A DNA stretch of 64,000 nt from Desulfomonile tiedjei (GTDB taxonomy: Bacteria; Desulfobacterota; Desulfomonilia; Desulfomonilales; Desulfomonilaceae), in NCBI GenBank assembly GCA_016218715.1, contig JACRDG010000002.1:1-64000 (forward strand), written 5' to 3'. Made by a program: the position numbers and the translations under genes. The number at the start of each line of letters is the position of its first letter. The first letter of the stretch is position 1. The notes under the pieces were generated by a model. It saw only the letters and a list, made by a program, of their open reading frames with translations. It did no database searches and had not been told where the DNA came from. This document shows, piece after piece, positions 19,481 through 53,982 of this stretch.

Positions 19481-21889
19481 CTACTGTTTGAAGTGAAAGT
19501 CTGACTCAAGAGCTAGAGGCTCTTCCGAGAGAACCGTCGATTCCAACCCCCCGAATAGGATGCTGAGCACCTCATCCATGTGGGTCACCGGCACGATTTC
19601 CATTCCTTTACGGACGCCTGACGGCACCTCACGAAGATCCTTTTCATTCTCAGCGGGTATGATGACTCGCGCGATGAGACCCCGTCTGGCCGCCAGCAAT
19701 TTTTCCTTCAGCCCCCCGATGGGGAGGACGCGCCCGCGCAAGGTGATCTCGCCCGTCATGGCAACGTCGTTGGGGAACGGCTTCTTGGTAAGAGCGGAAA
19801 CGAGGGCCGCGGTGATCGTGATGCCGGCCGATGGACCATCCTTCGGAGTGGCCCCTTCCGGCACGTGAATGTGCAGGTCGATCTTGTTGTAGAAGTCTGC
19901 CTTCAGGCCAAGCGCCCAGGCTCGGGAACGCACGTAACTCATGGCCGCTTGCGCGGATTCCTGCATGACCTCGCCGAGCTTTCCGGTCACGATCAGCTTG
20001 CCGGAGCCGGGCATCAGGGCCACCTCCACAATGAGAAGCTCGCCGCCTGCTTCGGTCCATGCGAGCCCCGTGCCGATTCCGATATTCTCCTTCTCTTCCT
20101 TGACGCCGTATCTGAACTTCGGAACACCGAGGAATCTGCCGACTTGTTTCGGTTCCAGCTCCGTAAAGAGTTCAGTCTCTCCGCTGACGACTTTCGTGGC
20201 GACCTTGCGGCAAACTTTCGCAATTTGCCGCTCCAGATTTCGCACCCCGGCTTCTCGGGTATAATTCCGGACGATACGCAGCAAGGCCCTGCGCGCGAAA
20301 CCAATCTGCTCCTCGGTCAAGCCGTTTGCCTGCCGCTGCTTCGGGACCAGAAACTGCTCGGCAATGTGCAGCTTTTCAACCTCGGTATATCCGGCCAAGC
20401 GTATGATCTCCATACGGTCCTGTAGTGGGGCCGGGATGCCGTGCAGGGTGTTGGCCGTGGTGATGAACAGGATCTGGGACAGGTCGTAGTCCACATCAAG
20501 ATAGTGGTCGTTAAAAGCGTGGTTCTGCTCCGGATCGAGCACCTCCAGCAGGGCCGCAGATGGATCGCCCCGGAAATCCATGCTCATCTTATCCACTTCG
20601 TCCAGAAGCATCACCGGATTGATGGTTTCGACTTTCTTCATGCTCTGGATGATCTTACCCGGCAGGGCTCCGATGTACGTCCGCCGGTGGCCTCTGATCT
20701 CGGCTTCGTCTCGCACGCCGCCGAGGCTGATACGGACAAACTCCCGTCCCGTTGCCCGCGCGACCGACTTGGCCAGTGAAGTCTTCCCCACGCCGGGTGG
20801 ACCCACGAGGCAAAGAATCGGACCCTTCGTCTGTTGGACCAGCATCTGCACCGCCAGATACTCGACGATGCGTTGCTTGACCTCCTTCAGCCCGTAGTGG
20901 TCCTCATCCAGAATGCGCTGAGCGTCCTGAATCGTAAGCTCCGATTCCGCCGTCTTGGTCCAGGGGAGCATGAGAAACCAGTCGACGTAGTTTCGTACCA
21001 CCGTAGCTTCCGCGGACATGGGAGACATGAATCTCAGCTTCCGGATCTCCTTGCGGACCTTTGCGTCCGCATCCGCAGGGAGGTTCTTCTTGGCCACCTG
21101 CTCTTCGAGGTCCGCCAACTCCGCCTTGAAATCGTCCTTCTCCCCCATCTCCTTCTGGATGGCACGCATCTGCTCGTTAAGGTAGTATTCCTTCTGGCTC
21201 TTCTCCATCTGTTTCTTGACGCGGTCCCGGATCTTCTTCTCGATCTCCGCGATCTCGATCTCGCTCTGCATCAATTCCAGCAGTTTTTCGATGCGTTCCT
21301 TCAGTGACGTCCGTTCCAGCAGCTCCTGCTTGTCCTCCATCTTGAGGTTGAGCTGTCCGGCGATGGTGTCTGCCAGCCGAGCCGGCTCGTTCATTGCGCG
21401 AACCGCGGTCACGAACTCCTGAGGCACCTTCTTGTTGTACGCCAGGTAATTTTCGAATACCGTTTTCAAGCCCCGAACCAGGGCTTGAACCTCTACCTCT
21501 CGTCCTCTGAATTCATCTCTGAGCAGAGCGACCTCTACCTTGAAAAAGCGCTCGTTGTCCACAAAGCGCTGGATCGCGCCGCGGCGCTTGCCTTCGACGA
21601 ACACCTTGATGGTGCTGTCAGGCAGCTTCAACATCTGGATGATCTGGCCGATCGTTCCGACCTGAAAAATGTCTTCCTGCTGCGGGTTAGTTTGCTGCGC
21701 GGTCTTCTGCGCCGCGAGAAAGATCATTTTGTCCGTCTGCATGGCAGTCTCAAGCGCTTTGATGGACCGCTCTCTCCCGACAAATAGAGGGACAACCATG
21801 TGTGGGAATACAACGATGTCCCGGAGAGGAAGCAGAGGCAAAGCGGCAACACTAGTGTTAGAAGTTTCTTCCTTCTTTCCGAAAAACAT
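19481..21889 (-). CDS. lon: ATP-dependent protease Lon (first paralog)
   Basis: 802 residues, full length. LON substrate-binding N-domain ([20 protein letters not shown]), AAA+ module with Walker A GPPGVGKT (363-370) and Walker B LLDEVDK, and the protease domain with the Ser-Lys dyad Ser687 (PKDGPSAG) and Lys730 (GGLKEK). It degrades misfolded and regulatory proteins. It is the last of the tig-clpP-clpX-lon set, all on the minus strand. A second full Lon lies at 57433. Confidence 0.97.
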
Positions 21890-32001: not shown

Positions 32002-32892
32002 TCAGAGTTCAAGCCAGGAATGAGAATAGAGAGACTGGCCAAGCAACAGCCTGGTCGTCTTCACGTAATCGACCTGTCGTTTATCCAATCCGCTCGTGTC
32101 GACTTCCTCGCCGTCGAAGACGCGACCGACCAGGTCCTCGAGGTCCATGGCCTGATCGTGCGCGATCCGGACGATCTCTTCGTCAAAGCCGTCAAGAATC
32201 GCCGACGTGATACCGCATTTCTTAAGAACGATGAGGTACACCTGGTTGAGGATGTCCCGCAGCTCATCGGGCGAGCCGTTGGAAACGTTGGAGAGACCGC
32301 AGGTGGACTGGGAACCGGGCGCCAGTTCCGGCAACCACTGCATGAAGGTCGTGCAGCCCTGAAGTTCCTGTTGCTGCGAAGAGACCGGCACTACGATGGG
32401 ATCGAACCAGATCCTGGTCAGGTCGATGTCCAGTTCGGCGGCTTTGGTCATCATGCTGTCCAACAACACCGACCGCTCGTTCTCATCGCGGGGAATCCCG
32501 TCCGGACCCCACATCAAGCCGACCATGTTGCAGTTGTACTTCTGGACCAGCGGCATCTGGAGATCCATGCGGTCAGGTTTCGCCATGATGGAATTGATGA
32601 CCGCGGGGCCCTTCTTCGGGACGTACACCTGCAAGCCGGCTTCTATGGCGTCGTTGTTGGTGGTGTCCAGGAACAGAGGCAAGTCCGTCACTTCCTGAAC
32701 CACTTTGACGAGCCACTGCATCATTTCCTGGCCGCCCTTCCTGGCCGGGCCCACATTGAGGTCGAGGAGATCCGCGCCTCTCTCGGTGAGCTTCTCAGCC
32801 CACTCCTGGATCGGCTTGGGGTCCTTCTCCCTCATGGCAGTGCCCGTATACTTCGACATGATATTGATGTTCTCAGCCACCACCTTTATCAT
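32002..32892 (-). CDS. acsE: methyl-tetrahydrofolate:corrinoid iron-sulfur protein methyltransferase
   Basis: 296 residues of the pterin-binding TIM-barrel family. Markers are the early VVAENIN, DLLDLNVGP (pterin-binding Asp/Asn region), LFLDTTN and STCGLSNVSNG segments, the same order as Moorella AcsE. It passes the methyl group of methyl-tetrahydrofolate to the cobalamin of AcsC/AcsD in the Wood-Ljungdahl pathway. AGGAGGT precedes the ATG. It is the last gene of the CODH/ACS operon, 186 bases after acsC, with a strong hairpin in the gap. Confidence 0.95.
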   Translation of the reverse strand: MIKVVAENINIMSKYTGTAMREKDPKPIQEWAEKLTERGADLLDLNVGPARKGGQEMMQWLVKVVQEVTDLPLFLDTTNNDAIEAGLQVYVPKKGPAVINSIMAKPDRMDLQMPLVQKYNCNMVGLMWGPDGIPRDENERSVLLDSMMTKAAELDIDLTRIWFDPIVVPVSSQQQELQGCTTFMQWLPELAPGSQSTCGLSNVSNGSPDELRDILNQVYLIVLKKCGITSAILDGFDEEIVRIAHDQAMDLEDLVGRVFDGEEVDTSGLDKRQVDYVKTTRLLLGQSLYSHSWLEL

Positions 32893-33078: not shown

Positions 33079-34422
33079 TTATGCCACGTAGTTCTGACGA
33101 AGATAGGCGGGTATATGAGCTCCCTCTCTGGGGCCGATGGCAACTTCCCAGCCCGAAAGCTCTTCTTCCAAATCGCCGCTAATAATAGCCGCAGCTCCCG
33201 GTATGACCAGCTTTCTCGTCTTGGTCTTCTCTTCGATTCCGGATTTCTTGACAAAGGGAGCGATCAAGTCCGCCACGAACTTGCCGGCTGCCCATGCGGT
33301 CAAAACCGACAGTCCATCTGTGTTCAGAACCAGCAGCCACGACGGCACACGGCTGGCCTCCACTTCGCCGGAAACGATGAAGTAGGTCAACGAGAAGTTG
33401 CTGGTGATCAGCACCGGAGAACTCTCGGTCGGATTGCCGATCGGGTATATTCCCTGCTCCGTGGTCATGGGCCGCTGAGGATCCGTGAAGATGTTCAACC
33501 GCTGCAGCAACAGCGGGAAGACCAGTTCGCCACGGAGGTCGCTCAGGATCGCGATGCCGCCGTACTTCGAGATGAACGTCCCTGCCACCAACGCTTCGTC
33601 TGTCGGAGTATCCGCCATCTCACACGGGAAGATGATGGTCGGAAAGCCCAACGGCCGGTACAGGTTTTCCAGCGCGAGGCGGCGGATCATCACGTTGTCT
33701 CGGAGCAGAGGTGCAAGCTCACGCGAGCCGGTGTCGAGGACGATGTCCTTGAAACCTTGTTCCACCAGTTTCGAACTCAGACGGGCGACATCTCCGACTT
33801 TGTCGGCCTTCACCGTGATCGGGCAGTCGAACTCTTTGGCCAGTGCGGCCATGGCGTCGAGATTCGCCGCGGTCGCCGCGTAGAGAAGAGGCTTCGCCTT
33901 TCCCACCTGACCCAGTGCCGCCTTCATAGCGTCCAGGTTGTCACTCATGAGGATCACGGCCGCGCCGGCATCAGACGCCTTCTTCGCGATCTTGGCGAAC
34001 CGGGCAGGGTCTCCGCTGTCTTTTACTGCGATCAACTCCGGCTTCAGGGTAAGACCGACTCGTTCGTATCGCAGCTCTTTGAAGGCCTTCAGCTTGCCGT
34101 CCACGGCCTTGTCGGCTTCCGACGTGGCTATGAGGCATCCGAGGGCAGTCGGGTTGTTGAAAGTCTTCTCGTGCCGGAAGAGAACCGTTTCTCCACCCGC
34201 CTTCACTGCTGCGTCCCCCACGCCGATCTGCACGGTGCGTATGGGTGGCGCGGACGCGGAGGCGAGTTTCTCTTTCGCGTCATCGCTCACGTACGGACAC
34301 AAATCCAGCTCGGCCTTGCCCGCAGCCAGATTCATGGCAAAGGCGAGGCAGGTGGGAACCCCACATTCCCCGCAGTTCTTTTTGGGCATTAGCTTGAATA
34401 TCTGTATTCCGGAAAGCGCCAT
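33079..34422 (-). CDS. acsC: corrinoid iron-sulfur protein large subunit (CFeSP gamma)
   Basis: 447 residues. N-terminal [4Fe-4S] domain with Cys17, Cys20, Cys25 and Cys42 (NCGECGVPTC), then a TIM barrel and the C-terminal corrinoid-binding domain. With AcsD it carries the methyl-cobalamin between AcsE and the AcsB A-cluster. Length and motif spacing match the bacterial AcsC family. GGGGAGG precedes the ATG. Its partner AcsD is not separate here but is the N-terminal part of the protein at 36858. Confidence 0.96.
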   Translation of the reverse strand: MALSGIQIFKLMPKKNCGECGVPTCLAFAMNLAAGKAELDLCPYVSDDAKEKLASASAPPIRTVQIGVGDAAVKAGGETVLFRHEKTFNNPTALGCLIATSEADKAVDGKLKAFKELRYERVGLTLKPELIAVKDSGDPARFAKIAKKASDAGAAVILMSDNLDAMKAALGQVGKAKPLLYAATAANLDAMAALAKEFDCPITVKADKVGDVARLSSKLVEQGFKDIVLDTGSRELAPLLRDNVMIRRLALENLYRPLGFPTIIFPCEMADTPTDEALVAGTFISKYGGIAILSDLRGELVFPLLLQRLNIFTDPQRPMTTEQGIYPIGNPTESSPVLITSNFSLTYFIVSGEVEASRVPSWLLVLNTDGLSVLTAWAAGKFVADLIAPFVKKSGIEEKTKTRKLVIPGAAAIISGDLEEELSGWEVAIGPREGAHIPAYLRQNYVA

Positions 34423-34565: not shown

Positions 34566-36773
34566 TTACCCAACGATGGAAGGCATGCTTACCGCGGGAT
34601 GCTCCTTCTCCTGGAGGAACGGATAGATCTCGTCTTCGGTCACGCCGACGCTCTCGTCAGCGATCCGATCCGCGAGGTTCGCTACCCCTCGCTCCTCGCC
34701 ACGAGCGTTGATCTTATCCCGCAGCATCTCCTTGAGGGCTTTGGGCATCCATACCAAGCGCAGAACACCACCTTCCGCGGAGACGAACTTCTTGGATCCG
34801 ACGAACAGCTTGCTGTGGCCGACAAAGCCCGGGGTGATGTTCCCACCGCCCGCGCTTCCAGCGAGGGTGGTGAACTTCATACCGCACGGAGTGGGGCCTT
34901 TGTAATCGCGGTCCACGGTCATGACGCCGTTACACACGGGCAACACCGCCGCGATGGCCTCGAAGCAGCCGCAGGAAGTCATCGGATCTTCCATGATGGA
35001 GTACGCGTTGTACTTCTGAACCTTGCCTCTCGATGCCTTCTGCACGAACTCGTTGACACCCGACCATTGGCCGAGACGCTCGTCGAGGACGTCGCCTTTC
35101 TCGATGGGCTGGTTCGGACCTGTGGGATTGATCTCGAAGGAGGCCTTGCAGTCGAGCCAGTTATATGCGCCGCAGAGCCCGGTCCGCTCCGGAGTCACCA
35201 CGCACACATGCGACGGTGCAAAGCTCTGGCAAAGCGTGCAGGAATAGAAAGTCGGCTCGTCTTCGTCGGTCATGCCTTCGACGCGGGCGTCTCTCTTGGT
35301 GTAGACCGCACGAGCTTGTTTGAGAAGGTCTTTGACCGCTTTCTCCTCGGTGAAGAGCTTCACCTGGACCTTGTCGAGAACCGACCCGAAGTCCTGATGG
35401 AACTTGGCATGGAGGATGGAGCCGATGTGGGAGAGACTGAACCCCTTCTCCACCGAGCCCTTGCCGATACGCACCCACGCGATGTCTCGCTGTCCGATGT
35501 GCATCAGGCCCTGAGCGTAGTTGATGAGGTGGTGGATCTGGCGCTCCAGGATCGGCTCGAAGTCGCTCTGCATCTTCCGGCCTGCGACTTCCACCAGGAT
35601 TCCCAGTGGCAAACGAGTCCCAGGCTTGATATCCTTAAGGTCGGGTCCGAAGACCTCCACCTTGCCGTCTTCCACTTCGGTCATATCCTTCATGACCGTG
35701 AGTTCTACGGCCTGGGTCTTCCCGCCACCGGCCTCCATGTAGATATCTTCGCCGCGGATCCGCTCGCCCTCGAAAGCCGGACCGTACGCCACCGGGACCG
35801 GAACTTCCGTCACGGTGACCTTCAGGCCGCGGACTTCAATGGCCTTGGCCACGATATCCTTATGAGGAATGTTGGAGATGACGTGCTCGTACGTGCAGAC
35901 ACCGGTCGGGAGGATCTCGGGAATGGGAGTGTCGGCGATGGTCGGGAAGCCATAGTTGATCGCTCCCGCCGCCGCGGCATACCATTCGTCGGAAACGTCG
36001 CCCAGAGCCAACACGAACGCGAAGACGCGGTCTTTGTTGTAGATGAGCACCTTGCGAAAATCGCCCGGCTCGATGCCACCAAAGCTCAGAGCCGCTCTAG
36101 TGGCAAACCCGACCGCGAATACTGCGGAAGAGATGTCGGGGCCGAATGGAACGAGACGGGTCGGCCAACCGATCTGCACGCCTGCGTCTACCAGCTGCTG
36201 CGAGAAGCTCGTCCCCGCATGATCTGCGGCCATGAAGACGTAGAGGTTCTTCTTCTGAAGCTCCAGCGCCATCTCCGCAGCGATCTCCTTTGTGGGAGCG
36301 CTTCCCACGATAGCCGCGAAACCGGGAGCCGTTCCATCCACGAACTCCACACCTCTTTTTCGGAGGATGATGTCGTCCGCGGCTCCCAGCCATAGTTTCT
36401 CGTCCGTGGGGTCTTCCGCTGGGAGGTAGTAATCAGGCTCCTCGATGTACCGAATCGCCTCGATGATCTCAAAATTGAACAGCGTGGCCATACCAGCGTC
36501 TAGAACCGGACCGAGATACGGCAGATGGGTCTTTTCCCTCACCGGGGGCGGGAGGAGCTGTTCGGAACGATCTAACACCACGCCGGCATCGCCGAGGTTC
36601 TTCACCGGGAATCCGAGAATCCCGTAAATAACCGGCAGGTAGTATCCTGTGTTGGGGAAGGCGAGCTCTTTCTTCTTTCCGAATTTCTGCACAGCCTTCT
36701 CGTATTTCGTCCGGGCCTTCTCGTAAACCTTGTGAGCACCGGCTATGACGTTTGCTGCGATTATCTTGGACAC
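34566..36773 (-). CDS. acsB: acetyl-CoA synthase (ACS catalytic subunit)
   Basis: 735 residues, GTG start with AGGAGG upstream. The A-cluster ligands are Cys512, Cys515, Cys524, Cys534, Cys601 and Cys603 (SCTLCQSF, HVC, GLC, SCGCF), each exactly six positions beyond the Moorella residues 506, 509, 518, 528, 595 and 597. Cys601-Gly-Cys603 is the site of the distal nickel. The enzyme joins a methyl group, CO and CoA into acetyl-CoA, or runs in reverse. The N-terminal domain that docks on CODH is present, so it should still bind the CooS part of the fusion. Confidence 0.97.
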   Translation of the reverse strand: MSKIIAANVIAGAHKVYEKARTKYEKAVQKFGKKKELAFPNTGYYLPVIYGILGFPVKNLGDAGVVLDRSEQLLPPPVREKTHLPYLGPVLDAGMATLFNFEIIEAIRYIEEPDYYLPAEDPTDEKLWLGAADDIILRKRGVEFVDGTAPGFAAIVGSAPTKEIAAEMALELQKKNLYVFMAADHAGTSFSQQLVDAGVQIGWPTRLVPFGPDISSAVFAVGFATRAALSFGGIEPGDFRKVLIYNKDRVFAFVLALGDVSDEWYAAAAGAINYGFPTIADTPIPEILPTGVCTYEHVISNIPHKDIVAKAIEVRGLKVTVTEVPVPVAYGPAFEGERIRGEDIYMEAGGGKTQAVELTVMKDMTEVEDGKVEVFGPDLKDIKPGTRLPLGILVEVAGRKMQSDFEPILERQIHHLINYAQGLMHIGQRDIAWVRIGKGSVEKGFSLSHIGSILHAKFHQDFGSVLDKVQVKLFTEEKAVKDLLKQARAVYTKRDARVEGMTDEDEPTFYSCTLCQSFAPSHVCVVTPERTGLCGAYNWLDCKASFEINPTGPNQPIEKGDVLDERLGQWSGVNEFVQKASRGKVQKYNAYSIMEDPMTSCGCFEAIAAVLPVCNGVMTVDRDYKGPTPCGMKFTTLAGSAGGGNITPGFVGHSKLFVGSKKFVSAEGGVLRLVWMPKALKEMLRDKINARGEERGVANLADRIADESVGVTEDEIYPFLQEKEHPAVSMPSIVG

Positions 36774-36857: not shown

Positions 36858-39800
36858 TTATGCGATTTCCCGCCTCATGGCCATGTCGGCGAGGACGCGC
36901 TCTCTCGCCTTGTCGATGCCGAGGGCTTTCCTCTTGGCGTCGATTTGTTCGATGCATCTTTTGGCCATTTCGATGGGATCTTTTTCCACGAAGTCCCACT
37001 TGCCGCCGTACACCTTCTCGATGTCCTTGAAGAGGTAGTTGGTGCAAACGTCTTCGTTGATCGTGGGGAAGCCGGCGCCGAAGAGTACGTAGACGCCCGA
37101 CGCGACGAAGTACTGGCCGATGGACACGGCTTTCTCGCTCATCCACTCAGGGGCGACACCGACCGCTGGAACGTCGGAGATGTCGTCACCCAGGCCGCCG
37201 TCTCTCACCACTGCCGTCGCTGCCATAAGGATTCTCGTGTTATCCACGCAGGATCCCATGTGGAGGACCGGCGGGATGCCGACCGTTTCGCACACCTGGG
37301 CCAGGTTCTCACCGGCATACTTGTGAGCCGCTTCCGGCGTCAGAAGACCCGCTTTGCCGAGGGCAATGGCCGCACAGCCGGTGGTCAGCACGAGAACGTC
37401 GTTCTTGATCAGCTCCTTGGCCAGTTCCACGTGCAGGTAGTCGTGCTTGATGCGTGCATTCCCGCAGCCCACGATTCCGGCCAGACCTCGGACCTTACCG
37501 TTGATGATGTTGTCGTTCAACGGCCGGTAGCTGGCCCGGAACATTCCGCCGAGCAGGTAGTTGATCGTCTCGTGGCTGAACCCTACGACCATGTCCTGCT
37601 GCTCGGTGGGGATGGAGACCTTGTTCTTGTCACGGTTGGGATAGTTGTCGATCGCATCCTTGACGATCGACTTGGCCGTCTCGAGACCGTACCGCTCGTC
37701 GTAGGCGTAGTGCTTGTACGCGCCCTGCATCTGGGCGATCGGGCTGGTGGTCACGACCTGAGTGTGGAAGCACTTGGCCAACTCGGCAACTCCCTGCATG
37801 ACGCACTGAACGTCGACCACCATGGCTTCCAAGGCGCCGGTGATAATCGCCATCTCCTGCTGCAGGTAATTACCGGCAATCGGGATGCCGTGGCGCATGA
37901 GGATCTCGTTGGAGGTGCAGCAGATCCCGCCGAGGCTGATTCCGCCGCTTGCACCCTTGCTCTGGGCGTATGCGATCATCTCGGGATCCTGCACCGCCTG
38001 GACGATGATCTCGGACAGTGACGGCTCATGCCCGTGCACGATGATGTTCACGGTGTCTTCTTTCATGCAGCCGAGGTTGACCTTGCCCAGGATCGGCACC
38101 GGTGTGCCATACAGGATGTCGGACAGATCGGTGGCGATCATCGAGCCGCCCCAGCCGTCCGCCAGAGCACACTTGGTGCCGAGCCGGATGATGTGCTCCA
38201 TATCCTGGTTCACACCCATGTGGGTCATGTGCATGACTTCCACCACCGGCCGGTCGATACCCTGGGGTATAACCCCTTCTTTTCTCCAGATTTCCTGACG
38301 CTTCAGGGGCGCCCGTTTGGCGTAGACAATCTCTCCGTCCTGCTGGCCGTATTGAGCTAGCGCCTTCTCGCCTAGTTCGACGGCTATGTCTTTGACCTCA
38401 CGGCCCTTGGTCTCGATGCCGAAGTCCATGGCCACTGCCATGAGTTTGGGGATGTCTTTGATATGGTAATCGGGAAGCTCGCCCTTGGCGGCATGGAGGA
38501 AGGTGTGAGCCACATGGCGGCCGTGATCGCTGTGCGCAGCAGCGCCGGCTGCGATCATTCTGGCGAAGTTCCTGGCAGCGATGGTCTCCGGAGTGGCGCC
38601 GCAGAGGCCGCAGCGTTTCTTTCTCTCTTCGGGGGTTTCTGTCTTCCCCTTGGCCGGCAGCACACGACAGGGTCCCATGTTGCATATCTTACAGCAGGAA
38701 CCGCCTTTGCCGATGGGGCAGGCGCTCAGCGTGCGCGCACGGTGGAAAGCGGTGGAATATCCTTCCCGATCGGCGATCTTCAGCCCTTCCAGGGTCACCG
38801 GATCGGCAGTGAACTGGGTCCAGTCTGCGGGTCCCAGCTCTTTCTTCTTCGGGGGAGCGGCGACCACCGAGGGCGCTTCCGCCTTGGCCGGCGCAGCAGC
38901 AGGGGCCGCTGCGGGAACCTGACCGGAAACCAGTGCTCCGAGACCGGTCGCCAGGTTCTTCACGGCCTTGAAGACCCCTACCATCTCTTTCAGGCCCTGA
39001 ACTTCATCCTTGGTCAATCCCATAATTTCTACCTCTTCTTCGGCCGCGGCCGCGGCTGCGGGTGCGGCGGGTTTTTCCACTGCCGGCGCGGGCTTGATTG
39101 CAGCGGGCGCAGGTGCAGGCTCAGCAGCCTTTGCTACCGCAGGCGCAGGCGTGGGAGCCTCCGCCTTCTTTTCAGCGGGCTTTGCCGCGGGTGCGGGCTT
39201 CTTTTCTTCCGGCTTTGCTGCAGGCTTGGCCGGGGCTTTGGGGGCTTCGGCAGCCAGAGACAGGTCAACCACCATGGAATCGAGGTCCGTCTCTACCATC
39301 AGGCTCGCGAGGTACTTTCTGACGTGTTCCAGTGTCTTTGGGTGCCTGAGGATGAGCACGTCACTACCGGCTTGGAGTGCGCTCAACGCGGTGATTGCCT
39401 CGAGGTTGATCCCACGGGTTCCTGCCTCCCCGAGTTTCGGGTCTTCCTTGGTGGGGAGTTTGGCTTCCTTGGTCTTCCAGACTTCTTCGGCGACGTTGTT
39501 GATGACCGGATACTGCAGTTTCTCATCGTTTTGGGTGAGAGCGGCTTGCCGGATACGCTCCATGATGGAGTAGCAGTACTCCATACCGTACCCGACGCTG
39601 CCGGTGGTCGGATCGATCAGTATCCTGTCAGTGGGAACACCGAGGTTCTCCAGGAGAATGTTCAATTGTTTTGCCAGGTTGATATCAATAGGCGTATTCG
39701 CGGCAACCGTATGCTTGTATGCGATAGCTGCGGCACCGACCTGTTTGTAATTCCCCTCGGTAACGGGGCCGATCACGATGTTGTAACCGCTGCACGCTTC

Positions 39801-40232
39801 GGCAACCGCTTTGAGGACCTCTGTGTTCTTTTCGTCGCTCGACACCCCCCACACGATCAGCGGAACGTTGATGGCTTCCGCCACCTTCTTGGCCACCTCC
39901 GCCGCGTGTTCGGCAGAGAGGTTCTTGCCGTTGGGGTCCGTGCCTTGGAGCCACAGGGTCACGATATCGGCCTTGTAGACCTCAACGCACTTCTTCGCCC
40001 AGGCCACGGGGTCTCCGACGACGTCCTTGAACGGTTCCAGCGCTTCCTCGGCCCATTCCTCCGGCACTATATCCAAGATCTGGAGCGCCAACTTCGGGGC
40101 ATTGGGCGTCTTGCCTTCAAAGGAGTAGAAACTGTAACCAGTCTCTCCTCCCACCACCACTTCACATCCGGGCTTACCTATCTTGATTTCGCGGATTTTT
40201 CCCGAATACTTGACTTTGGGCAACTGAGCCAT
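36858..40232 (-). CDS. fusion of CFeSP small subunit (AcsD) with nickel CO dehydrogenase (CooS/AcsA)
   Basis: A single 1124-residue frame. Residues 1-330 are AcsD (CFeSP small subunit, TIM barrel; starts KVKYSGKIREIKIGK, with LIDPTTGSVGYGMEY). Residues 331-398 are an Ala/Pro/Lys/Glu linker, 399-438 a short amphipathic segment, 439-468 a second Ala/Pro linker. Residues 469-1124 are a complete CODH: D/B-cluster Cys505, 513, 514, 517, 522, 541, and C-cluster ligands in VHGH (733-735), GICCTSNE (771/772), VQC810, GC923GN, TGC953 and GSC995, with Lys1034 near the proton path. CODH interconverts CO and CO2; AcsD with AcsC carries the methyl group. In the well-studied bacteria the two are separate genes. 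AAGGAAGG precedes the ATG. Confidence 0.93.
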   Translation of the reverse strand: MAQLPKVKYSGKIREIKIGKPGCEVVVGGETGYSFYSFEGKTPNAPKLALQILDIVPEEWAEEALEPFKDVVGDPVAWAKKCVEVYKADIVTLWLQGTDPNGKNLSAEHAAEVAKKVAEAINVPLIVWGVSSDEKNTEVLKAVAEACSGYNIVIGPVTEGNYKQVGAAAIAYKHTVAANTPIDINLAKQLNILLENLGVPTDRILIDPTTGSVGYGMEYCYSIMERIRQAALTQNDEKLQYPVINNVAEEVWKTKEAKLPTKEDPKLGEAGTRGINLEAITALSALQAGSDVLILRHPKTLEHVRKYLASLMVETDLDSMVVDLSLAAEAPKAPAKPAAKPEEKKPAPAAKPAEKKAEAPTPAPAVAKAAEPAPAPAAIKPAPAVEKPAAPAAAAAAEEEVEIMGLTKDEVQGLKEMVGVFKAVKNLATGLGALVSGQVPAAAPAAAPAKAEAPSVVAAPPKKKELGPADWTQFTADPVTLEGLKIADREGYSTAFHRARTLSACPIGKGGSCCKICNMGPCRVLPAKGKTETPEERKKRCGLCGATPETIAARNFARMIAAGAAAHSDHGRHVAHTFLHAAKGELPDYHIKDIPKLMAVAMDFGIETKGREVKDIAVELGEKALAQYGQQDGEIVYAKRAPLKRQEIWRKEGVIPQGIDRPVVEVMHMTHMGVNQDMEHIIRLGTKCALADGWGGSMIATDLSDILYGTPVPILGKVNLGCMKEDTVNIIVHGHEPSLSEIIVQAVQDPEMIAYAQSKGASGGISLGGICCTSNEILMRHGIPIAGNYLQQEMAIITGALEAMVVDVQCVMQGVAELAKCFHTQVVTTSPIAQMQGAYKHYAYDERYGLETAKSIVKDAIDNYPNRDKNKVSIPTEQQDMVVGFSHETINYLLGGMFRASYRPLNDNIINGKVRGLAGIVGCGNARIKHDYLHVELAKELIKNDVLVLTTGCAAIALGKAGLLTPEAAHKYAGENLAQVCETVGIPPVLHMGSCVDNTRILMAATAVVRDGGLGDDISDVPAVGVAPEWMSEKAVSIGQYFVASGVYVLFGAGFPTINEDVCTNYLFKDIEKVYGGKWDFVEKDPIEMAKRCIEQIDAKRKALGIDKARERVLADMAMRREIA
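39021..39035 (-). promoter_or_regulatory. possible internal translation start inside the AcsD-CooS frame
   Basis: In-frame ATG (39023-39021, Met404) preceded by GAGGT at 39035-39031, seven bases upstream, within the codons for Glu-Glu-Val-Glu-Ile. A ribosome starting here would make a separate CODH of 721 residues with a short N-terminal tail. Confidence 0.4.
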
Positions 40233-40320: not shown

Positions 40321-40551
40321 CTAGGCGGGATTCTTCCGTTTCTCACTCCCGAACCAATCTTGCGAATAAAAGTATCTTTCCGCGGTACGCAGGTACCTTT
40401 GCACAGGTTCGGTCTCCTCCCCAAGATTCACGTAGTTGATATTCTTTCTCCACTGATATTGGTCCTGATCCGTGCCCGCGGCGTAGGTAGGCAGCAGGAT
40501 TTTCACCTTTTGCCCGTCAAATCTCTCTTTCTCCTCGTAGTTGTCGGCCAT
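40321..40551 (-). CDS. small hypothetical protein leading the CODH/ACS operon
   Basis: 76 residues, hydrophilic, rich in Tyr, Arg, Lys and Glu, no cysteine, no signal peptide or membrane segment. GAGGAG precedes the ATG and the fusion gene follows after 88 bases on the same strand, which supports a real, co-transcribed gene. The segment YQWRKNINYVNLGEETEPVQ and the YLRTAERYFYSQDWF stretch look like a folded small domain rather than random sequence. I do not recognise it; it is not CooC/AcsF (no P-loop). Confidence 0.65.
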   Translation of the reverse strand: MADNYEEKERFDGQKVKILLPTYAAGTDQDQYQWRKNINYVNLGEETEPVQRYLRTAERYFYSQDWFGSEKRKNPA

Positions 40552-42357: not shown

Positions 42358-42358
42358 C
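42280..42358. repeat. half-copy of repeat A followed by a family C end
   Basis: GGGCCGGCAATATGCCGGCC (42280-42299) and GATACCGTATTTATGAAATG (42333-42352), the same order as at 16891-16960. The right end touches the tupC stop codon. Confidence 0.65.
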
Positions 42359-43011
42359 TAAGCGGAAGCGAGCCTTCCCTGGGAGAGTCGAAGCACTCGA
42401 TGGCCGAGAGCCTGGGCCTGGGCCTGGTCGTGGGTGGTAAAGACGATCGTCGTCCCTTGATCGCGGTTGAGCCGCAGGACAATTTCTTCGGTCCGCAGCA
42501 CACTCTCCCGGTCCATGTGGCTGCCGGGCTCGTCGAGCAGGAAAACCTCCGGTTCCAGGACGAGCGCTCGCGCCAGCGCTACCCGTTGGGTTTCGCCGCC
42601 TGAAAGGGACCGGGCGGGTCGGTGCTCAAACCCCGACAATCCGACGCGTTCCAGAGCAGCCGTTGCCATCCTCCGGCACTCCGGTCTGGGAACATGCCGA
42701 ATGCGAAGGCCCCACATCACATTGTCCAGAACCGAGGAATGGAAGAGATAAGGAACTTGGAGGAGCAAGCCGACTCTGCGACGAAAACTCAGGATTCTCT
42801 TTCTCGTCACGGTTTCTCCGCAGAAGAGCATGCTCCCGCGATCCGGGTCCTGGAGGAACGCCAGCAGGTGCAGAAGGCTAGTCTTTCCCGCGCCGTTCGG
42901 ACCGACAAGCGCGACGACCTCGCCCTGGAGAATCTCAAGATGCTCGACCTCCAGCACGACCGGGCCATCGTACGAGAAGACGAGGTCTGAAACCGAATAG
43001 ACTCTGGTCAC
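42358..43011 (-). CDS. tupC: tungstate ABC transporter ATP-binding protein
   Basis: 217 residues, GTG start overlapping the tupB stop by four bases (GTGA). Walker A GPNGAGKT, signature ARSLSGGETQRVALARAL, Walker B EVFLLDEPGSHMD and the switch histidine (FTTHDQ) are all present. It powers import through TupB. Substrate is inferred from TupA. Confidence 0.93.
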   Translation of the reverse strand: MTRVYSVSDLVFSYDGPVVLEVEHLEILQGEVVALVGPNGAGKTSLLHLLAFLQDPDRGSMLFCGETVTRKRILSFRRRVGLLLQVPYLFHSSVLDNVMWGLRIRHVPRPECRRMATAALERVGLSGFEHRPARSLSGGETQRVALARALVLEPEVFLLDEPGSHMDRESVLRTEEIVLRLNRDQGTTIVFTTHDQAQAQALGHRVLRLSQGRLASA

Positions 43012-43700
43012 GACCTCCCCTTTTGGAGCAGGAATAGGAGCAAGTTGACCAATAGAGCGACCCCAAGCAGGACCATCCCGAGGGCGAGCCCCAGAGCGAA
43101 TTCGCCTTTGCTCGTTTCAAGGGCGATGGCCGTGGTCATGGTGCGCGTGAACCCTCTTATGTTACCACCCAACATCATGGCGATCCCCACTTCGGAGATC
43201 ACCCTGCCGAAGGCCACTACAATGGCCGCAAGGACCGCGTAGCGCCCTTCCTTCAAGATCATCCACCCCTGCTGAGCGACCGTTGCCCCCAAGAGCTTTA
43301 CCGTAAGAAACAGCCGTGGGTCCAGGTGCCGTATGGCGGCAATTACCAGGTTCACCACGGTCGGGAGCGCGAGTACCGTCAGGCCGAGAGCGATTCCGGT
43401 AGGCGTATAGAGGATGCCGGCTGCTCCCAGCGGTCCCTGACGGCTGAGCAGGCCGTAGAAGAACAGCCCCACTACCACGGTCGGGAGCGCCATGAGCGTG
43501 TTGAGAACCACAAGGATCGCAGATTTGCCTCGAAACTCAGTTACCGCCAGGACGAGGCCGAAGGGCACCCCTATGAGCGACGCAATGAGCGTCGAAGAGC
43601 CGGCCACCAGCATGGACGTCCAGACCACAAAATAGACTTCGGGATCGAACCCGAAAACGAGGGTGAGGGCATTCCAGAATGCATTACCGAGAAACGTCAA
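43008..43700 (-). CDS. tupB: tungstate ABC transporter permease
   Basis: 230 residues, probable TTG start with GGGA upstream. Five to six membrane segments and the EAA-like loop of binding-protein-dependent permeases (AFGRVISEVGIAMMLGGN). The family is close to TupB/WtpB. It lies between tupA (267 bases upstream, with repeat B in the gap) and tupC. Confidence 0.9.
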   Translation of the reverse strand: MTFLGNAFWNALTLVFGFDPEVYFVVWTSMLVAGSSTLIASLIGVPFGLVLAVTEFRGKSAILVVLNTLMALPTVVVGLFFYGLLSRQGPLGAAGILYTPTGIALGLTVLALPTVVNLVIAAIRHLDPRLFLTVKLLGATVAQQGWMILKEGRYAVLAAIVVAFGRVISEVGIAMMLGGNIRGFTRTMTTAIALETSKGEFALGLALGMVLLGVALLVNLLLFLLQKGRS

Positions 43701-43758
43701 CTTAACGTTCCCTTTGCGCGTATCCGCGCCAATCTAAGGCTGGCCTGTTCTGCCGTCC

Positions 43759-43827
43759 GTCATTCCGGCGAAGGCCGGAATCCAGTTTCTTCAACGCCTT
43801 CTGGACTCCGGTCTCAGCCGGGGTGAC
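43759..43827. repeat. dispersed inverted repeat, family B, inside the tup operon
   Basis: GTCATTCCGGCGAAGGCCGG and the distal CTCCGGTCTCAGCCGGGGTG arms. It lies between tupA and tupB, so it is transcribed with them. Confidence 0.85.
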
Positions 43828-43967
43828 GTCGCCACACTTGAGGCAAATAGCTGCTATCACAACTGATTTCACTGGAAGCTGCCACCTATGCCTCTAGTAC
43901 GGCCAGCCACTCGGACCTCGCTGCCCGTGCTCGATCGAGGAGAGCGTCGCGGCCGGCCTCGGCCGGC

Positions 43968-44777
43968 TCATTTAGTCGCATCGGGAAAGAAGAGCTGTTT
44001 TCCACCCTGTTTGAAGCCCGCTATGATGCCTTGGCCTTCGGGGCCCGTCACGTACTCGATGAACTTCATCGCCAGGTCATACTGGGCATGGAGATGTTTC
44101 TTCGGGTTGACGGCAATGATTCCATAAGGGTTGAAGAGCGCTTTGTCGCCCTGGCTCACAATCACCAGGTCGATCTTGGGCTCGAACGCGATGAACGTCC
44201 CTCGGTCCGCGAGCGCGTATCCCTGCTTGTTAAAAGCCATTTGAAGCACAGCTCCCATTCCGACCCCTGCTTCGACATACCACGGCCCGCTGGGCTTTAT
44301 TTCGGCCGCCTTCCAGAGCTCTTTTTCCTTCTGGTGAGTCCCGGATTCGTCCGCACGAGAGATGAAGGGCGCTTTCCCCTCGGCCAGGCGTTTGAAGGCA
44401 TCCACCGCGGTCTTAGCGTCCTTTAACCCCGCGGGATCGCTCTTGGGGCCGACAACAACGTAATCGTTGTACATGACATCTCTGCGATTGACCCCGAACC
44501 CGTTCGCGACAAACGCATCCTCTAGGGGTCTGGCATGGACGAACACGACGTCCACATCGCCGTTCTCGCCGAGCTTCAAGGCTTTACCCGTCCCGACGGA
44601 GATAACATCGACCTTCACGTTGTTTGCCTTCTCAAACGGCGGCAGCAATACCGCTAACAGCCCTGAGGCTTCCGTACTTGTCGTGGTGCTCATCCGAAGA
44701 TGCGTCTGCGCATGAGCTGCGAGAGCCACGGTCAGAAACACGGCCAGCATGGCTCCAGCGACGAAGAATTTTCTCAT
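43968..44777 (-). CDS. tupA: tungstate-binding periplasmic protein
   Basis: 269 residues with a signal peptide (MRKFFVAGAMLAVFLTVALA, cleavage after AHA). The mature start RMSTTTSTEASGLL is the TupA anion-binding signature (TTTS), and VISVGTGKALKLGENGDVDVVFVHA is also typical. TupA proteins bind tungstate far better than molybdate; a mixed preference cannot be ruled out. GAGGAGGT precedes the ATG. A truncated second copy of its 5' end lies at 45273-45380. Confidence 0.93.
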   Translation of the reverse strand: MRKFFVAGAMLAVFLTVALAAHAQTHLRMSTTTSTEASGLLAVLLPPFEKANNVKVDVISVGTGKALKLGENGDVDVVFVHARPLEDAFVANGFGVNRRDVMYNDYVVVGPKSDPAGLKDAKTAVDAFKRLAEGKAPFISRADESGTHQKEKELWKAAEIKPSGPWYVEAGVGMGAVLQMAFNKQGYALADRGTFIAFEPKIDLVIVSQGDKALFNPYGIIAVNPKKHLHAQYDLAMKFIEYVTGPEGQGIIAGFKQGGKQLFFPDATK

Positions 44778-45272: not shown

Positions 45273-45380
45273 TTAAGTACTTGTGGTGGTACTCATCTGA
45301 AGATGCGTCCGGGCATGGGCAGCGAGGGCGACGGTCATAACCACGGCCGGCATGGCCCCAGCGAAGAAGAACTTTCTCAT
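45273..45380 (-). pseudogene. truncated second tupA (35 codons then stop)
   Basis: Starts MRKFFFAGAMPAVVMTVALA and ends MSTTTST followed by TAA, where the intact tupA continues EASGLL. Its ribosome site has decayed (GTGACGG against GAGGAGG). Confidence 0.88.
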
Positions 45381-47745: not shown

Positions 47746-48420
47746 TCAACGCTTTTCGTAGGGCTTCAGGAACTCGACCAAGTCCCGGCGCCCCATGGAA
47801 GCAGCCCACATGAGAGCGGTCCAGCCGTTCCTGTCCGTAGCAGACACGTCTGCGCCGGCTTCGACGAGTATCTTGACGAGGCCTGGATAATATTCTGCTG
47901 TGGCAATAATCAGTGGGGTGGCTCCATATTGATCTCGCGCTTCCAGGTCTGCGCCCTTCTGGAGGAGCTCTCTGACCACGTCAGTGTATCCGCGGCGGCA
48001 GGCGCGCTCGAGAGGGGTCCAGGCGAAGTCGTCCTTGACGTTGACATCCGCTCCGTGGGCGAGCAGCAGGCGTACCACTTCCACGTGCCCGCGACGGCAT
48101 GCCTTCATCAATGAGGTCGCGCCGTACTGGTCTTTGGCCTCCGCATCCGCCCCGTCGCGCAGAAGCCGTTCAACCACCTCAGGGTAGTTCATGGAAGCAG
48201 CCCAGAGCAAAGCCGTCCATCCGGACGTGGTCCTGGCGTTGACGTGAGCCCCCTTGGCCAGAAGCGCCTTCACCATCTCGGCTCTCCCTTCGGAACTGGC
48301 CAGGATCAGAGGAGTGTACCCGTATTCATCCGCCACATTGGGATCAACGCCCTTGGCCAGAAGCGACTCGACTTTGGCCAGGTCCCCCTCTCCAACAGCT
48401 TTCAAAAGCTTGTTCTTCAT
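47746..48420 (-). CDS. ankyrin-repeat protein
   Basis: 224 residues from the ATG at 48420, chosen for AAGGAACG upstream; a longer frame from 48513 has no such site. Six to seven 33-residue ankyrin repeats (for example GYTPLILASSEGRAEMVKAL, GATSLMKACRRGHVEVVRLL) and no other domain. No signal peptide, so cytoplasmic. A protein-binding scaffold; partner unknown. It ends 45 bases before the kinase start, on the same strand. Confidence 0.92.
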   Translation of the reverse strand: MKNKLLKAVGEGDLAKVESLLAKGVDPNVADEYGYTPLILASSEGRAEMVKALLAKGAHVNARTTSGWTALLWAASMNYPEVVERLLRDGADAEAKDQYGATSLMKACRRGHVEVVRLLLAHGADVNVKDDFAWTPLERACRRGYTDVVRELLQKGADLEARDQYGATPLIIATAEYYPGLVKILVEAGADVSATDRNGWTALMWAASMGRRDLVEFLKPYEKR

Positions 48421-48755
48421 GGTGGTCCGTTCCTTATCGGCTGGAAGTCCGGACAGGAACAGCTCGTGCCCGGAAGGGACTCGGCCACGCAAAAGGCCGC
48501 GGTCATAAATCATAGCATTAATCGGTCAAACGTGGAATCCCCGGCTCGTCCTTACCTCAGGAAAGGTACCGTTGCGAGCCCCTTCCCTCGGGGCATGAAC
48601 CCCTCACCCGTTATCTCAGGGCCTGTGGACAATCTTTCAGCGAATTCACGCGTGTGACCGTGCGTCGGGATCAGGCACAACAACCAAAGTACATCATTCC
48701 AGGGGCACGGGATTGTCAAGACAAATCCCCAGCTTGTCTTCCCGGATCATTCGCC

Positions 48756-52308: not shown

Positions 52309-53982
52309 ATGACTTCGTGGTTCGAACCTCTCTCGGCAAGACTCTCCAACACCGGGCTCGCGGGCCTGGGCATTCGCGCGCCGTTTACCATTCCTTCAGG
52401 AATCGTGACCACTGTGCCTTCGGTGATCGCGCGTCTTGCCCGGGAGGTGCCAAGCCTCGGCTTTCTCACCACCAAGACCTTGAGCCTCGCTCCCAGGCCC
52501 GGGTACCGAGAACCGATCATTCATGAGTATTATCCGGGTTGTTTTGTCAACGCGGTCGGGTTGGCGAATCCGGGAGCGTCTCGGTTTCGCGAGACCATGC
52601 AACCGCTGCTCCCGCTGGCAGAAGGCAAACCTCTCTTCGTCTCGATCATGGGGCAAGATCCGGAGGAATTCCTCGAATGCGCCCTCGTACTGGACTGCAT
52701 CGCAGACGCATTCGAGTTGAATCTCTCCTGTCCGCACGTCAAAGGTGTGGGACAGGGGGTGGGGTCCGATCCGGGAATGGTGCGTGCTATCATCCGACTG
52801 CTCAAGGAGCGGATCGGCAAACCGATCGTTCCCAAGCTGTCGCCCAACCTCGCGGATATCGCGGGGATGGCCCGCTTGTGCGCGGACGCGGGAGCGGATG
52901 CACTCTCGCTCGTCAACACCGTCGGCCCCGGCGTGGCAACGGATACCGACGGTTATCCGATCCTTACCAATGTGGCAGGAGGGCTCTCGGGAGCCGGTAT
53001 TCTCCCCGTAGGATTAAAGGCCGTCAGGGAGGCGGCCGCGGTGGTCGACGTACCGATCATCGCTTCGGGCGGGATCGCTTCGGTCGCGCACGTGCGGGCT
53101 TACTACCAGGCGGGAGCCTCCCTCTTTGCCGTAGGATCGGCCCTCGCGGGCATGAGCACGTCGGAACTCGTGACCTTCTTCGCGGTTCTCGAACGGGATC
53201 TGGAACTCGCACCTGAAGAACGGTCAGGAAGGGTCGTCACTCCTCGGCCCCCCCTCACCGCGTACCGGAAGAGCCTGATAGTCGCGAATGAGGGGATCGG
53301 AGACAACATGTTCCGATTGCGCCTCGAAGCCGGACCCTCGTGCGACCCGGGCCGCTTTTTCTTTCTCCGTCTGCCCGGCGAGGGGGAGAAGCCCTTCTCT
53401 CCCGCGGACGATGAAGGGCCGGAGTACCTCGTTCGCAAGGTGGGACCCTTTACCGCGGCCATGGAGGCGCTTAAACCGGGCAATGAGATCTCTATGCGCG
53501 GTCCTTATGGAAAGGGGTTCCCGGAGCCGAGGCCCGGGCGACGGCTTGTTCTCGTGGGAGGCGGTACTGGTGTCGCGCCGCTCATGCTGGCCGCGAGGCG
53601 TTGGCCTGACCGCATATCCCGTGCATTTTTCGGGTTCTCCAAAGAGGTGAATCCGGCTTTTCGCGCGGAAATCATGACACTGATCCCCCAGGCCCAAGTG
53701 GTTATCGACCCACCCGGCGCGGTGGGTGAGGTTACGAGGGCGTTGATCGAGGATATGGCAACTGCCCCGGACCTGTACGAGGAGTGTCAGGCCTTCCTCT
53801 GCGGCCCGGGTCCCATGATGGACCTCGCGAGCAACGTCCTGCGAACGACGGTACCGTCGAATGCCATCTTCATCGCCCGGGAAGACATAATGCGCTGCGG
53901 AATAGGCGTTTGCGGCAGTTGCGGCACCAGAGGCGGCCTAAGGTCGTGCGTGGACGGCCCGGTCATGCCCCCGGAAGAATGA
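52309..53982 (+). CDS. fused dihydroorotate dehydrogenase (PyrD, class 1B) and its PyrK electron-transfer subunit
   Basis: 557 residues. Residues 1-305 are a class-1 dihydroorotate dehydrogenase with the catalytic cysteine in ELNLSCPHVKG and FMN-site segments ALSLVNTVG and IIASGGIAS. Residues 315-557 are PyrK-like: FAD domain, NAD-like nucleotide-binding segment LVLVGGGTGVAPLM, and a C-terminal [2Fe-2S] site (MRCGIGVCGSCG then LRSC). In most bacteria PyrD and PyrK are two genes. It oxidises dihydroorotate to orotate and passes electrons to NAD. The product feeds the OMP decarboxylase step (see 15959). No clear ribosome site is visible. Confidence 0.9.
   Translation: MTSWFEPLSARLSNTGLAGLGIRAPFTIPSGIVTTVPSVIARLAREVPSLGFLTTKTLSLAPRPGYREPIIHEYYPGCFVNAVGLANPGASRFRETMQPLLPLAEGKPLFVSIMGQDPEEFLECALVLDCIADAFELNLSCPHVKGVGQGVGSDPGMVRAIIRLLKERIGKPIVPKLSPNLADIAGMARLCADAGADALSLVNTVGPGVATDTDGYPILTNVAGGLSGAGILPVGLKAVREAAAVVDVPIIASGGIASVAHVRAYYQAGASLFAVGSALAGMSTSELVTFFAVLERDLELAPEERSGRVVTPRPPLTAYRKSLIVANEGIGDNMFRLRLEAGPSCDPGRFFFLRLPGEGEKPFSPADDEGPEYLVRKVGPFTAAMEALKPGNEISMRGPYGKGFPEPRPGRRLVLVGGGTGVAPLMLAARRWPDRISRAFFGFSKEVNPAFRAEIMTLIPQAQVVIDPPGAVGEVTRALIEDMATAPDLYEECQAFLCGPGPMMDLASNVLRTTVPSNAIFIAREDIMRCGIGVCGSCGTRGGLRSCVDGPVMPPEE

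Follow-up and report, generated by a model that had tools for sequence, protein, structure and literature searches.

In the bacterial CO dehydrogenase/acetyl-CoA synthase (CODH/ACS) systems of Moorella, Clostridium autoethanogenum, and Carboxydothermus, AcsD, the small subunit of the corrinoid iron-sulfur protein (CoFeSP), and the Ni-CO dehydrogenase (CODH) are separate chains, as is established and as solved structures display. A 64,000-nucleotide stretch of Desulfomonile tiedjei DNA (positions 1 to 64,000 of contig JACRDG010000002.1, assembly GCA_016218715.1; hereafter the window) carries a gene in which the two are joined by a long linker, raising the questions of whether such a gene is real and what a tie between these subunits could do. 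The AcsD-CODH fusion is a real and conserved architecture which occurs in one family, the Desulfomonilaceae, and once outside it; it is a variant of the CODH/ACS system and not a new kind of enzyme.

The fused gene and its product

An earlier note on the window had described one uninterrupted frame running from AcsD through a linker into CODH, and this is confirmed by its 1124 codons, by Pfam and NCBIfam domains and by its recurrence in other genomes. The coordinates proposed, 36858-40232, were right but the strand had been left unstated: the plus-strand translation is interrupted by stops, and it is the minus-strand frame that gives 1124 amino acids followed by a stop (Table 1). The computed mass of the product is 120.3 kDa and not about 117 kDa as first estimated.

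The corrinoid-protein small subunit is whole, as had been claimed. Pfam CdhD (PF03599) matches residues 15-256 above its cut-off (1.3e-45), and the closest solved chains, 2h9a_B and 9fzy_E, align with residues 4-311 and 3-311, respectively. Of the NCBIfam models, NF003376 scores above its cut-off (404.4 vs. 280), and the AcsD subfamily model NF003377 matches residues 3-408 with 516.6 bits, just below its cut-off of 527. The CODH part is matched by Pfam Prismane/CODH (residues 513-1086, 8.6e-162) and by TIGR01702, which spans residues 480-1106 (598.9 bits, cut-off 478), and the closest solved chains are 6ytt_B and 9fzy_B (residues 476-1106). It carries the motifs CX7CCX2CX4C (505), CGLCGAT (541), AHSDHGRH (566), HGHEP (733), GGICC (768), DVQC (807), GIVGC (919), TTGC (950), HMGSC (991) and WMSEK (1030). 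We assume that these residues are assigned to individual clusters as in work on CooSII. By motif pattern, and in line with the cluster ligands placed in the earlier note, the D-cluster is of type II, the ligands of the B- and C-clusters are complete and a His/Lys acid-base pair is present; the set corresponds to the E-1, F-1 pattern given in excerpts of PMC6344411. One second CODH is encoded in the same genome, 44% identical and aligning to the CODH part only.

In an AlphaFold2 prediction of the fusion (49-row alignment, mean pLDDT 78.0, pTM 0.62) the AcsD and CODH ends are folded. Among seven full-length fusions the mean identity is 85% in the AcsD part and 89% in the CODH part, against 33% in the first linker (mean pairwise identity over residues 333-396), a difference by which both halves look selected as enzymes. 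The conservation of the fusion points to a working enzyme.

Recurrence in the Desulfomonilaceae

Eighteen genomes of the family (f1; G000-G017, G000 being that of the window) were searched. The whole fusion lies in a single frame in seven of them (G000, G002, G003, G004, G005, G008, and G010), the six further full-length frames being 81-87% identical to that of the window. One of these, G005, is the finished genome of a cultured species, D. tiedjei DSM 6799. In another three (G007, G011, G015) a contig end cuts the frame inside AcsD or its tail, and the rest runs through the linker into CODH. AcsD and CODH are separate in G006; no AcsD-CODH junction was seen in five of the 18 (G001, G013, G014, G016, G017) and nothing was found in two (G009, G012). 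No AcsD other than the fused one was found in G000 (99.99% complete), G003 (96%), and G008 (99%).

Outside the family, a bin of another family (G067; 94% complete, 6% contaminated) contains one 1123-codon frame with the layout of the fusion. Since it recurs in other Desulfomonilaceae, in the finished DSM 6799 genome and in a second family, the fusion is real and not an artefact.

As a separate observation, G007, G011, and G015 each have one contig (L043-L045) with an outward-facing acsD start at both ends, an arrangement fitting an assembly break caused by a repeat.

The linker and its amphipathic helix

A linker with a central amphipathic segment had been anticipated and is present; its earlier span, 38880-39240, was too narrow, and the linker extends here over 38796-39296. 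Ala, Pro, Lys, and Glu make up 72-91% of linker 1 across the seven fusions, and AlphaFold2 gives residues 313-465 mostly a pLDDT below 50. Conservation is highest in the middle: identity in the same fusions is 72% in the helix core, 63% in the helix with its acidic flank and 51% in linker 2.

The helix is also found away from the fusion. Stand-alone AcsDs of six Desulfomonilaceae genomes end their Ala/Pro/Lys tail in a helix of the fusion type, either in addition to the fusion (G004, G005, G007, G011, and G015, in the last as a 133-aa fragment at a contig end) or replacing the fusion (G006). In G006 the separate AcsD and the separate CODH both bear it, the CODH starting with the helix. Being common to two subunits that must meet, this piece is most readily interpreted as serving docking or self-association. 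A wider role as a genome-wide docking tag was considered and rejected: the 50-residue helix segment has no other convincing match in its own genome (best other E 1.75). A profile built from 17 family sequences, which match by construction, found no further match among the 12,357 open reading frames (ORFs) of the loci compared (next E 3), and with it no kinship was found to the linkers of G067 or of the MetF-AcsD fusions described below.

G006 may represent either a fission or the unfused state. A fission or deletion is favoured, because its CODH begins with the helix and its operon lacks AcsD.

In G004 (L033/L034), the acsD of the fusion and the free acsD are 95.8% identical over 1122 bases although their helices differ, a pattern suggestive of gene conversion.

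A putative internal start

An ATG at codon 404, preceded by a Shine-Dalgarno-like run, lies immediately before the helix (Table 1). A Met occupies this place in all ten fusions and in none of the six stand-alone AcsDs, and the separate CODH of G006 starts at the position of this linker Met. The fourth codon before it is GAG in nine fusions and GGG in one; for comparison, GAG accounts for 301 of 782 Glu codons summed over the ten fusion genes, three of which are gene parts. Shine-Dalgarno pairing energies at the internal site range from -6.0 to -12.1 kcal/mol across the ten, as computed against an E. coli-type anti-Shine-Dalgarno tail. The site has the lowest energy of the in-frame ATGs tested in six of the ten genes and is among the best six in all. 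A conserved internal start could thus make free CODH, and the fused form may not be the sole product.

Proposed function and its alternatives

The reading preferred here, with a probability of roughly 55%, combines a tether, a docking helix and an internal start for extra, untethered CODH. AcsD pairs with AcsC, and the tether would hold the methyl-carrying CoFeSP beside the CODH-ACS core, raising its local concentration during shuttling between the methyltransferase AcsE and ACS. The linker helix would dock partners so that parts without a peptide bond (free AcsD, split CODH) could still meet, and ribosomes may also start at the linker ATG, giving additional CODH without AcsD. The earlier proposal of a methyl-carrier tether stands as regards the predicted flexibility of the linker but not as regards AcsD, which is not itself the corrinoid carrier; the tether would therefore hold the AcsC/AcsD pair through its small subunit. 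We take the alpha subunit of CoFeSP to be AcsC and the beta subunit to be AcsD. With that assumption the tie appears sterically sensible, since an AlphaFold3 model of CODH-ACS-CoFeSP, described in excerpts of PMC12289521, has the N-terminal domain of ACS against the beta subunit.

Several points weigh against this reading. The helix is predicted by AlphaFold2 at residues 408-434 with a pLDDT of only about 34-45, i.e., with low confidence. At -7.1 kcal/mol, the internal site of the window pairs less strongly than any of the five operon starts (-8.6 to -12.0), and the fusion of G067 lacks a Met at the corresponding position. Glu-rich runs yield Shine-Dalgarno-like sequence by themselves, and the ten genomes are related, so that the internal-start counts are not independent. 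From G006, the peptide bond is dispensable when free AcsD is present. Finally, excerpts of a study on Clostridium autoethanogenum report 1.7-2.9 AcsCD per AcsB (PMC9040625), an excess that a strict 1:1 fusion cannot give; the free AcsD genes of five Desulfomonilaceae genomes could restore it, but not in G000, G003, and G008. A tentative extension, held at less than even odds, is that the tie of the Desulfomonilaceae is adjustable, with tethered CODH plus free CODH from the internal start, and with a homotypic helix docking free AcsD and CODH.

Alternatively, the chain could be a polyprotein: with post-translational cleavage in the linker, or with translation from the internal start bypassing the fused form, the working subunits would be separate, as they are in other bacteria. 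The long, probably protease-accessible linker, the conserved internal start and G006, which manages without the fusion, would all suit this possibility, which is nevertheless rather doubtful: no separate AcsD gene was found in G000, G003, and G008, where every free AcsD would hence have to come from cleavage; linker 1, at 33% identity, shows by eye no conserved motif for such a cut; and a similar fusion exists in G067.

It is unlikely that the fusion mainly sets a 1:1 ratio and the co-folding of AcsD and CODH, carrier proximity being catalytically unimportant. acsD and the CODH gene are adjacent on one strand in many relatives, often within 100 bases, and fusion would in that case merely join neighbours; a fixed ratio, however, requires no 165-residue linker with a conserved helix, and would be spoiled both ways by the extra free AcsDs (G004, G005, G007, G011, G015) and by the internal start.

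The linker helix might instead be a membrane or scaffold anchor placing the complex near electron-transfer partners, as its amphipathic character and a net charge of +2 to +4 at the best window in seven of nine sequences computed would allow. This is very improbable, given that the G004 fusion has a charge of 0, and G067 one of -3, and that the helix is not found elsewhere in its own genome; its presence on both AcsD tails and the CODH start suits partner docking equally well. An artefact of assembly or sequencing through a lost stop or a frameshift, for which the many-contig metagenome bins among the Desulfomonilaceae genomes could be invoked, is ruled out by recurrence in six more full-length frames, one from a finished isolate genome, and in a second family.

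Origin of the fusion and other AcsD fusions

The search and tree proposed in the earlier note were carried out, and recovered fusions in the Desulfomonilaceae and G067, with the fused rows of the former in one clade. Of 395 genomes sampled across the phylum, 254 have AcsD by a first query and 253 by a second; among the matches listed for the two queries, AcsD frames above 1000 residues are those of G000, G003, G004 and G067. Eighty AcsD loci taken from named genome records, of which many are Chloroflexota, include at least one fusion (L051, which is the contig of G008), and no relative was found in viral contigs. AcsD or CODH frames above 950 in G050, G061, G062, G063, G072, G077, and G090 were discarded as read-through, AcsD alone being 313-540 aa.

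In a tree of four proteins (AcsD, CODH, AcsB, and AcsC; 55 loci) the Desulfomonilaceae group with a clade in which the 76-aa domain described below is attached C-terminally to AcsD (starred support of 99), and G067 is placed elsewhere, without starred support. The seven fused Desulfomonilaceae rows, representing six genomes as L037 and L051 belong to one, are monophyletic to the exclusion of G006 (96, starred). Separate origins of the two fusions are only favoured: the trees lend no support to a common origin, but holding the two together is not rejected (AU p 0.106 for CODH, 0.0645 for four proteins). The helix of G067 is unrelated to that of the Desulfomonilaceae. The p of about 1e-37 obtained when the fused Desulfomonilaceae are joined with G067 and G006 is left out stems largely from the strong family clade containing G006.

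AcsD is also joined to MetF, the methylene-tetrahydrofolate (THF) reductase. ORF and Pfam checks identified fusions of MetF, a long linker and the N-terminus of AcsD at three loci of families f30, f65, and f93 (Table 1); tetratricopeptide (TPR) repeats occur in the linker of G301, are marginal in that of G192 and absent from that of G069. A search with such a fusion gave eight single-frame matches covering nearly the whole query, the query genome included, and a frame of G070 (1047) looks like the same fusion with a longer linker. Taken together with the 76-aa fusions described below, AcsD appears tied to its neighbours in several ways and may act as a tethering hub.

The operon and its 76-residue protein

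On one strand, the operon encodes a 76-aa protein, the fusion, AcsB, AcsC and an AcsE-like methyltransferase (Table 1), an order which is the same in the Desulfomonilaceae and G067. Neither Pfam nor NCBIfam matches the 76-aa protein, the PDB offers no convincing relative (best E 0.27), and a structure prediction is uninformative (pTM 0.27). Homologues are fused to the C-terminus of AcsD in the sister clade of the Desulfomonilaceae (L135 of G074 and six of the 80 loci from named records); elsewhere, in Desulfobacterota, Chloroflexota, and Spirochaetota loci, the protein is encoded by a small gene of its own immediately ahead of acsD. By this pattern it is likely an unrecognised CODH/ACS-associated protein.

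Table 1. Coordinates of the fusion, its parts, the neighbouring operon genes and related fusions.
Feature	Position	Strand	Remarks
AcsD-linker-CODH fusion gene	36858..40232	(-)	ATG start; 1124 aa; coordinates include the stop
AcsD (CoFeSP small subunit) part	39297..40232	(-)	Residues 1-312; Pfam, NCBIfam, PDB match, AlphaFold2
Linker 1	39024..39296	(-)	Residues 313-403; Ala/Pro/Lys/Glu rich, predicted disordered
Shine-Dalgarno-like GAAGAAGAGGT run	39031..39041	(-)	Upstream of internal ATG
Internal ATG, codon 404	39021..39023	(-)	Proposed second start; 721-aa, 77.4-kDa CODH with N-terminal helix
Amphipathic helix module	38931..39023	(-)	Residues 404-434
Linker 2	38796..38924	(-)	Residues 437-479
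Ni-CO dehydrogenase part	36861..38795	(-)	Residues 480-1124; Pfam, NCBIfam, PDB match, motifs, AlphaFold2
76-aa conserved small protein	40321..40551	(-)	Just upstream of fusion; ends FGSEKRKNPA
AcsB, acetyl-CoA synthase	34566..36773	(-)	735 aa; Pfam, NCBIfam
AcsC, CoFeSP large subunit	33079..34422	(-)	447 aa; NF003195, 591.2 bits vs. 306
AcsE-like methyltetrahydrofolate:corrinoid methyltransferase	32002..32892	(-)	296 aa; best model 218 bits, below cut-off 259
MetF-linker-AcsD fusions	L147:5602-8274; L148:5677-8337; L149:6815-8980		Small-genome families of the same phylum; TPR repeats in the linker of the first, marginal TPR match in that of the second

Comparison with known systems

The CODH/ACS loci of Moorella, C. 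autoethanogenum, and Carboxydothermus likewise hold CODH/ACS, CoFeSP, and methyltransferase genes together, and the CODH and AcsD parts of the fusion align to solved chains over nearly their whole length. In the fusion, by contrast, AcsD and CODH form one chain whose linker carries a helix and, apparently, an internal start. The long-tailed AcsDs of other Desulfobacterota (about 500-550 aa) share the layout in part, the tail being often Ala/Lys/Pro rich and CODH usually adjacent, but they end in a charged helix-like segment or a 76-aa-protein domain instead of CODH. The MetF fusions similarly tie AcsD to a pathway enzyme by a long, charged, Pro/Ala-rich linker, although the partner is N-terminal and is the reductase, and the linker helix has no sequence kinship.

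In the E2 component of 2-oxoacid dehydrogenases, as in the fusion, Ala/Pro-rich flexible linkers surround a small ordered segment, with a proposed local-concentration effect. The likeness to these swinging arms drawn in the earlier note holds by analogy for such linkers and fails for the lipoyl and E3-binding domains, Pfam finding CdhD and Prismane only; moreover, the tied subunit of the fusion bears no cofactor itself.

The earlier statement that no characterised enzyme of this form is known agrees with the literature searched, where none is described, but the form is not unique, as the Desulfomonilaceae, G067, and the other AcsD fusions demonstrate. Excerpts of PMC6344411 refer to fused Ni-CODHs classified in its Supplementary Table 1; the contents of that table aside, no description of an AcsD-CODH or of a MetF-AcsD fusion was found in the literature, as far as excerpts extend. 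No such fusion is described in excerpts of PMC12137691, PMC2702500, PMC3584212, PMC7857596, PMC10553843, and PMC5736913, and the words "fusion" and "fused" are absent from the main text of PMC12827605. The protein itself has presumably been public since deposition of the D. tiedjei genome.

The visits of a mobile CoFeSP to AcsE and ACS in turn are hard to study, and a natural tether in cultured D. tiedjei, which has a finished genome, makes this shuttling directly testable and could provide a stabilised complex for structural work. Both the wider set of AcsD fusions and the conserved small protein suggest that the complex has components missing from the annotation libraries searched.

Other genes in the window

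Upstream of the CODH/ACS operon (42358-44777, minus strand) are genes for a TupA-like tungstate-binding protein (250 bits, cut-off 400) and an ABC ATPase, with a protein between them that has no Pfam match and is permease-like by eye; a 35-aa frame at 45273-45380 resembles, by eye, the TupA N-terminus. Another apparent subunit fusion is the 557-aa frame at 52309-53982 (plus strand), in which a dihydroorotate dehydrogenase part (15-279) is followed by one resembling an electron-transfer subunit (339-553), all matches being below curated cut-offs. The window also encodes two full-length Lon proteases (19481-21889 and 57433-59907, minus strand), the former with ClpX and trigger factor genes nearby, and a 255-aa protein rich in ankyrin repeats (47746-48513, minus strand) adjoining a sensor kinase.

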